The notes below the pieces were generated by a model. The model was not told where the DNA came from and did not search any database. It saw only the letters and a program-made list of their open reading frames with translations. A stretch of DNA of 64,000 nt, from assembly GCF_004365575.1 (NCBI RefSeq), contig NZ_SOBG01000003.1:1-64000 (forward strand), in the 5' to 3' direction. The DNA is from Hypnocyclicus thermotrophus. GTDB lineage: Bacteria; Fusobacteriota; Fusobacteriia; Fusobacteriales; Fusobacteriaceae. Positions 47,603-50,185 of the stretch are shown here, piece by piece; position 1 is the first letter of the stretch, and each line of letters opens with the position of its first letter. A program made the translations under genes and the position numbers.

Positions 47603-47631
47603 TTGCATTATTTTGACATTTATGATATTAT
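47603..47631 (+). promoter_or_regulatory. Promoter for the attenuated ABC-transporter operon
   Basis: TTGCAT, a 17-base spacer and TATTAT. A TTGACA at 47613 is better as a -35 but has no -10 at the right distance. Transcription would start near 47638, about 22 bases before the leader peptide. The stretch 47524-47602 between the previous gene and this promoter shows nothing else. Confidence 0.45.
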
Positions 47632-47659
47632 TTAAAAAAATAAAAATTGGAGGTAAAAG

Positions 47660-47695
47660 ATGTATATAATATTTAATCACCATCATCATAGATAA
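47660..47695 (+). CDS. Histidine-rich leader peptide
   Basis: GGAGG at 47649-47653 precedes an ATG by 6 bases. The frame encodes MYIIFNHHHHR and ends in TAA. Four consecutive His codons (CAC CAT CAT CAT) in an 11-codon frame, with a strong ribosome site, a promoter and a terminator downstream, is the layout of an attenuation leader such as that of hisG in enterics. Ribosome stalling at these codons would sense charged tRNA-His. Confidence 0.8.
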   Translation: MYIIFNHHHHR

Positions 47696-47808
47696 ATTGG
47701 GATTATATTTGTGAATGTCACAGGTATAAGCCCGTTTTGTGCTGTATCTGTGATGAACATCTTTTACTTATGAGGATCATCTAGATATAGCTTCTAGATG
47801 ATTTTTTT
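47696..47808 (+). promoter_or_regulatory. Transcription attenuator with pause hairpin and terminator
   Basis: A hairpin at 47718-47753 (TCACAGGTATA with TGTATCTGTGA, extended by GC pairs). A terminator at 47776-47802 (ATCATCTAGA/TCTAGATGAT, loop TATAGCT) then seven T. An alternative pairing of 47747-47756 (TCTGTGATGA) with 47777-47785 (TCATCTAGA) would break both and act as antiterminator. ACATCTTTTAC at 47757-47767 is the exact complement of 47653-47663, which covers the leader ribosome site and start codon. These elements support His-responsive control of the transporter genes; the exact folding scheme is inferred. Confidence 0.7.
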
Positions 47809-47830
47809 ATTTATTAAAAAATCATCTAGA
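47793..47830 (+). repeat. 15-bp hairpin sharing an arm with the attenuator terminator
   Basis: TCTAGATGATTTTTT (47793-47807) is the exact complement of AAAAAATCATCTAGA (47816-47830), with an 8-base loop. The left arm is also the right arm of the terminator stem, so three related arms lie in a row. The gap from 47831 to the transporter gene holds only AT-rich sequence and its ribosome site. Confidence 0.7.
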
Positions 47831-47954
47831 GAAAATCCATTAAATATAATTAAAATATATAATTTTTTTATTACTTATTATATATAGCAAAAAAATATTA
47901 AGGTAATATAAAGATTTTAAATTTGAATAAAATATAAAAAGGAGAGGATTGAAT

Positions 47955-50156: not shown

Positions 50157-50185
50157 AAGAGCGATAATTAACATCGCTCTTTTTA
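50157..50185. terminator. Shared terminator between ABC operon and recJ
   Basis: AAGAGCGAT and ATCGCTCTT (9 bp, loop 7), with T run on the plus side. It overlaps the recJ stop codon (50183-50185). Confidence 0.8.

Follow-up and report, generated by a model that had tools for sequence, protein, structure and literature searches.

The region upstream of an amino-acid ABC transporter operon in Hypnocyclicus thermotrophus raises the question whether uptake is controlled here by a histidine attenuator and, if so, whether that attenuator stands alone. The original prediction described an 11-codon leader with four consecutive His codons, a hairpin, an antiterminator and a terminator in front of a binding-protein/permease/ATPase operon. 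The window, the whole stretch of 64,000 bp that was analysed, was searched for these features (Table 1). The element is very probably a ribosome-mediated transcription attenuator, responsive to charged tRNA-His and controlling an ABC importer of the polar amino-acid type, for which histidine is the predicted substrate.

Table 1. Features of the leader and the transporter operon in the window
Feature	Position	Strand	Remark
Promoter-like TTGACA-17-AAAAAT	47613-47641	+	weak -10; consensus scan only
Shine-Dalgarno GGAGG for leader ORF	47649-47653	+	
Leader peptide ORF MYIIFNHHHHR, stop	47660-47695	+	ORF reading; predicted; kept in orthologues
Four His codons of leader ORF	47678-47689	+	
Segment a (His/Arg/stop codons)	47683-47694	+	pairs with d if ribosome-free
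Segment b	47698-47714	+	immediately 3' of leader stop codon; partner c
Segment c	47717-47734	+	partners b or d
RF04312 alignment	47717-47813	+	full length (model positions 1-107), 44 bits
Segment d (antiterminator strand)	47739-47764	+	rival partners a, c, e
Segment e (terminator 5' arm)	47769-47790	+	partners d (antiterminator) or f
Terminator with T run	47772-47806	+	
Segment f (terminator 3' arm and T run)	47791-47809	+	
Substrate-binding protein (SBP) gene, SBP_bac_3 PF00497	47955-48740	+	predicted His importer
Permease gene, BPD_transp_1 PF00528	48774-49409	+	
ABC ATPase gene, PF00005	49410-50153	+	
Terminator-like hairpin closing operon	50157-50181		scored on both strands

The leader ORF and its GGAGG site were present where they had been described, with the codons ATG TAT ATA ATA TTT AAT CAC CAT CAT CAT AGA TAA. 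The hairpin, antiterminator and terminator were recovered as well, but the leader forms five helices where the original prediction had named three: b:c (about 47698-47714 with 47718-47734), a:d (47683-47694 with 47745-47756), c:d, the antiterminator d:e and the terminator e:f. In helix a:d the His codons base-pair directly to the antiterminator strand. Strand c is shared by b:c and c:d, strand d by a:d, c:d and d:e, and strand e by d:e and e:f; the antiterminator and the terminator are mutually exclusive, and each is conserved. The folding energy of the 151-nt leader RNA was -46.7 kcal/mol, compared to -27.6 +/- 3.6 kcal/mol for shuffled sequences (z -5.4, 0 of 200 shuffles). Homologous leaders have a TTGACA at a similar distance, with a better -10 than that in the window. 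A second copy of AATCATCTAGA is located just 3' of the terminator (47820-47833); it could pair with the terminator 3' arm and T run (TCTAGATGATTTTTT), forming a possible additional hairpin or a terminator on the reverse strand.

We infer that the element would respond to histidine starvation in the following way. In the absence of a ribosome, a, with the His codons, would pair with d, and b with c, and the terminator e:f would tend to form. When histidine is short, a ribosome stalled on the His codons would cover a while b:c remains folded; d would then pair with e, the terminator would be blocked and the operon would be read. When histidine is ample, the ribosome would be at the stop codon and cover b, and the freed c would capture d, allowing the terminator to form. 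The same scaffold would serve other amino acids once its stall codons are replaced and d is altered to match.

These states were folded without the bases that a ribosome covers, taken to extend 12 nt beyond the first base of the A-site codon. In full-length equilibrium folding of the window RNA, a stall at His codon 1, 2 or 3 gave 17.2 antiterminator and 0.1 terminator pairs, a ribosome at the stop codon gave 0.1 and 13.4, respectively, and the ribosome-free RNA was a mixture of structures. The other 24 of 25 aligned leaders retained the terminator in every ribosome state; with a complete terminator, equilibrium folding thus could not tell the switch states apart across the family. Before the terminator 3' arm exists, the mean number of d:e pairs over the 25 leaders was 5.5-5.6 when stalled, 3.8 at the stop codon and 0.7 when ribosome-free, and before the terminator is complete about 10 of the 25 shifted clearly as predicted and 2 in the opposite direction. 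Since the terminator wins at equilibrium in those 24 leaders and only about 10 of 25 shift clearly earlier, the switch must depend on folding order, and from the homologues we infer that b:c would have to form first during transcription.

SBP orthologues were collected across 61 related genomes plus 80 named contigs. His leaders with good Shine-Dalgarno sites and terminal runs of 2-6 His codons are present upstream of the SBP gene in Sebaldella-type genomes and most Fusobacteriaceae. Their N-terminal residues diverge widely (for example MFNRSFSIFITVHHHHHR, MSQLFVVLNSLHHHHRY, MKKSFVLLNLKTVHHHHHR and MFRKNLFTTLHHHHHR). Among the orthologous loci read, Leptotrichia-like and some Fusobacterium-like genomes contain the transporter without a leader. 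The original prediction would have been refuted by orthologous leaders lacking conserved His codons or the terminator; most of them keep both, with a few exceptions. The transporter leader of genome G009 (L007:1202-1400) has a terminator, a Shine-Dalgarno site and a TTG-start ORF but no His run, unlike the his operon leader of the same genome, which has HHHHHH. Loss and re-aiming are suggested as alternatives for this leader. In the leader of G016 (L022:1288) the run is shortened to ...LHYHRY instead of HHHH, one His codon having changed to Tyr. The sister species has the leader MYRIFNHHHHR, followed by a stop codon, close to a contig end; its leader-to-SBP DNA is divided between two contig ends (L031:1-470), and the part 5' of the SBP gene contains a repeat-like sequence (ACAGATAAACACTGATAAATCTGGTGTT), perhaps an insertion. 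In the spirochaete Brachyspira pilosicoli, related SBP loci are preceded by two short ORFs (L061:2614 and 3694) with HHHH or HHHHQ at their ends, and the RNA scaffold seems to be absent there.

An unguided alignment of 25 leaders was used for scoring the helices. The five helices were paired in 96.7, 92.4, 85.9, 88.2 and 94.6% of cells, falling to 19-51% when slid by 1-3 columns, and the terminator showed both-sided changes in 7 of 10 pairs (the shuffle controls ignore kinship). Conserved His codons, antiterminator, terminator and covariation across the Fusobacteriaceae thus support the histidine attenuation that was originally proposed.

The genome of H. thermotrophus encodes histidinol dehydrogenase, and its hisZ-led his operon, located on the same contig at a distance of 70 kb, has the leader MKINITIKLHHHRH, ending at a stop codon, with the same RNA layout. 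The his operons of relatives likewise bear a homologous His leader. When transporter and biosynthesis leaders were aligned together, helices a:d and b:c showed both-sided changes in 7 of 18 pairs, a number reached in 0 of 500 shuffles, which ignore kinship. A covariance model built from this joint set matched exactly two sites in the H. thermotrophus genome, the transporter leader and the his operon leader. Across Fusobacteriota, this model gave matches in 55 of 98 genomes. The original prediction understates the finding, as the his operon and the leaders for other amino acids use a homologous scaffold.

The binding-protein/permease/ATPase operon itself was confirmed by the domain matches (Table 1). 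That its substrate is histidine is predicted from the leader alone. None of the curated HisJ-type models passed its cut-off with the SBP of the window; the top curated model was lysine/arginine/ornithine, under its cut-off, and the permease and ATPase lean toward cystine models, likewise under cut-off. Together with the Cys codon preceding His in the Sebaldella-type leaders (MCHHR), these scores would suit a genuine His-codon attenuator on a transporter with another or broader substrate (e.g. Arg/Lys, Gln or cystine), for which His starvation is merely a proxy. We consider this unlikely, given that the His codons are the conserved element of the transporter leaders and that the sole other copy of the scaffold in the genome sits on the his operon.

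As read from the sequences, the leader scaffold is not specific to histidine. Several matches of the covariance model, and further leaders found with the Rfam model RF04312, have other stall codons, which match the gene that follows (gene names are from models where tested and otherwise by sequence resemblance). Pro leaders (MRKNQVISNNVNRKPIPPR, MIKKVLLSITLNPMVP and MKRFLIADVNPTVPRVDLH) precede sodium/proline symporter genes, of which 2 of 2 tested passed the PutP model. Tyr leaders are present before tyrS (MKKNFTLGNRYYYYYL and MNRKINYNGYYYYYH) and before AGCS carriers (MNNKNFVTTSYYYYYRNQDLN and MKQKIVFNTNAYYYYYLT), and Thr leaders before thrS (MRLLTTTTDTFI) and before asd with an aspartokinase-like gene (MLRLISTTTTIIMI). 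The Trp leader MKLYCTKLNLTKYWQSH precedes trpX (TrpX model passed), MKLYQQNMTTQNSWQSHWI a trpX relative, and the aromatic leader MASQNLTNWYFYYYFRN precedes DAHP synthase and a tyrA-like gene. A contrasting pair comes from two genera: in one, the His leader MKRFREAMHHHR lies upstream of the ABC operon, and in the other, MKRFREAMCMS lies upstream of the metN-like gene of a metNIQ-like operon (L166:338); each is followed by a stop codon. The latter, whose first eight residues are homologous to those of the His leader, suggests a Met- or Cys-sensing form. Two leaders ending in ..FSSQFR before the stop codon (L235 and L242) have the same scaffold upstream of a BPD_transp_2 permease gene; Ser, Phe and Gln are candidates for the amino acid sensed. 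Downstream of putP in a Cetobacterium-like genome, a cobalamin riboswitch (95.9 bits) was found (L153:2632-2799).

The antiterminator strand changes with the codons: in the Pro form, the stall codons CCCCCC face AAGGGG in strand d. For 25 leaders of eight classes, the mean energy of the own a-d duplex was -13.7 kcal/mol, compared to -10.0 +/- 0.5 kcal/mol with permuted partners, and 0 of 20000 permutations were as strong (strands were delimited by hand, and kinship is not corrected for). In the Tyr leaders the a-d pairing is poor.

A scan of the window against Rfam at gathering thresholds gave no match, while a permissive scan yielded RF04312 below threshold. RF04312 is the trpB motif (SRC-39-1), a 'strong riboswitch candidate' without a ligand in the paper of 2024 that published it; its more than 900 cases come from Firmicutes and Fusobacteria and most often lie upstream of an uncharacterised amino-acid-type ABC transporter, and the authors also allow a classic attenuator (PMC11109978). 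The part of the window that aligns to RF04312 consists of c:d, which is the P1 hairpin of the alignment, and the terminator. Because its score of 44 bits lies below the curated gathering score of 59 bits, we do not claim formal membership for the window RNA; the best score in Fusobacteriota was 52.4 bits. Both have the P1 hairpin with the antiterminator in its right shoulder, then the terminator, and both are located before amino-acid transporter and biosynthesis genes. They differ in that the published model begins 3' of the leader ORF and was read as a possible riboswitch, and in that the above-threshold members examined carry Trp codons whereas the leader in the window carries His codons.

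The sequence upstream of 42 RF04312 hits from one Bacillota order was read for leaders. A Trp-codon ORF with a Shine-Dalgarno site lies just upstream in 39 of the 42 (typically WQNWRR or WQSWRR before the stop codon) and ends 9-23 nt 5' of the motif; the genes that follow are mostly trpX-like or trpB (models passed in 2 of 2 tested). The remaining three are an aromatic leader before aroE, a hit truncated at a contig end, where a Trp codon can still be read, and one without a leader. An automatic leader rule alone recognised 36 of the 42; at random positions within these loci its rate was 2.4%. In clostridia, the sub-threshold matches include some with His leaders, upstream of hisS and of a hisZ-like gene, and others whose Leu-rich leaders precede SNF-family carriers. 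Other matches (L221, L222, L224, L226, L227, L231-L233, L239, L240 and L243), mostly weak, had no convincing leader and were rejected as false positives. With Trp leaders in 39 of the 42 hits, RF04312 looks like the 3' half of a ribosome-mediated attenuator, of which the leader ORF would be the missing 5' half. The open-access literature yielded no work tying RF04312 to leader peptides, no account of the trpB motif besides PMC11109978 and no report of a trpX leader peptide; trpX of Streptococcus suis has been reported to be under T-box control.

The rating by its source paper (PMC11109978) favours an aptamer made up of the c:d hairpin and terminator, with a free amino acid or a related compound as its ligand and the leader ORF incidental. 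We regard a riboswitch as very improbable, since gene-matched leader ORFs precede 40 of the 42 hits in the Bacillota order (39 Trp, 1 aromatic) and are also carried by the Fusobacteriota relatives, one scaffold precedes genes for at least six amino acids, which a single aptamer could not all sense, and the stall codons themselves pair with the antiterminator strand. For the Bacillota and Fusobacteriota RNAs, common descent is likely rather than convergence. On balance we favour, with reasonable confidence, one old scaffold comprising RF04312 and the Fusobacteriota leaders. In it the complementary antiterminator strand would change along with the stall codons, and across two phyla it would serve genes for His, Pro, Trp, Tyr, Thr, aromatic amino acids, Leu and perhaps Met/Cys.

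Ribosome-mediated attenuation at His codons is a classical mechanism. Like the enteric his operon leader (RF00514), the Fusobacteriota leader has an ORF for a His-codon leader peptide and a predicted stall-dependent choice between an antiterminator and a Rho-independent terminator. The two share no sequence or covariance match; in Fusobacteriota the antiterminator strand is a direct pairing partner of the His codons and has a second competitor, c, and the scaffold would serve an ABC importer besides the his operon. In 2004, Vitreschak reportedly predicted attenuator-controlled histidine transporters (yuiF, yvsH and lysQ), mainly in Proteobacteria. There too the substrate was predicted from a His attenuator, but these belong to other transporter families and other phyla.

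Among Bacillota, His leader attenuators have been predicted for the his operons of the Bacillus cereus group, Peptostreptococcaceae and Erysipelotrichales (PMC9413887), and His leaders for hisZ/hisS in bacilli (PMC2965389). They resemble the Fusobacteriota leader in their short His runs, their histidine genes and their terminator and antiterminator, but govern his operons or hisS, whereas the Fusobacteriota one would govern a transporter too; hisXYZ transporters in the Bacillota survey are under T-box or HisR control (PMC9413887). Neither paper covers Fusobacteriota. That the element itself belongs to the T-boxes or to the enteric His_leader family we hold to be extremely improbable: histidine transporters are under T-boxes in some Bacillota (PMC9413887) and one sub-threshold T-box match occurs elsewhere in the genome (C1:27680), but neither family reaches its gathering score in the window, RF00230 has no match at the transporter operon or the his operon, and RF00514 has none anywhere in the genome. 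An ordinary terminator behind a chance His-rich ORF, for which nothing but the small size of the element speaks, has a negligible probability in view of the covariation and the covariance-model matches across the phylum, and at the sequence level conservation in many divergent genomes rules out a chance origin of the leader.

The original prediction regarded leader attenuation as undescribed for a histidine transporter in Fusobacteriota; no description of leader-peptide attenuation in this phylum was found in the open-access literature, where absence is weak evidence. The class of mechanism was already known; what is new, as far as could be checked, is the scaffold, together with the exchange of its codons and the identity proposed for RF04312. 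For RF04312 a mechanism is now proposed that can be tested directly by codon change. If the single scaffold holds, a published orphan riboswitch candidate would be settled, and amino-acid sensing would be modular in a T-box-like manner, but by way of the ribosome. The leaders also provide substrate predictions: His for the ABC system in the window, Tyr for some AGCS carriers, and Leu or aromatic amino acids for some SNF-family carriers. In Fusobacteriota, leader-peptide attenuation would recur as a means of governing how amino acids are taken up, made and charged onto tRNA.
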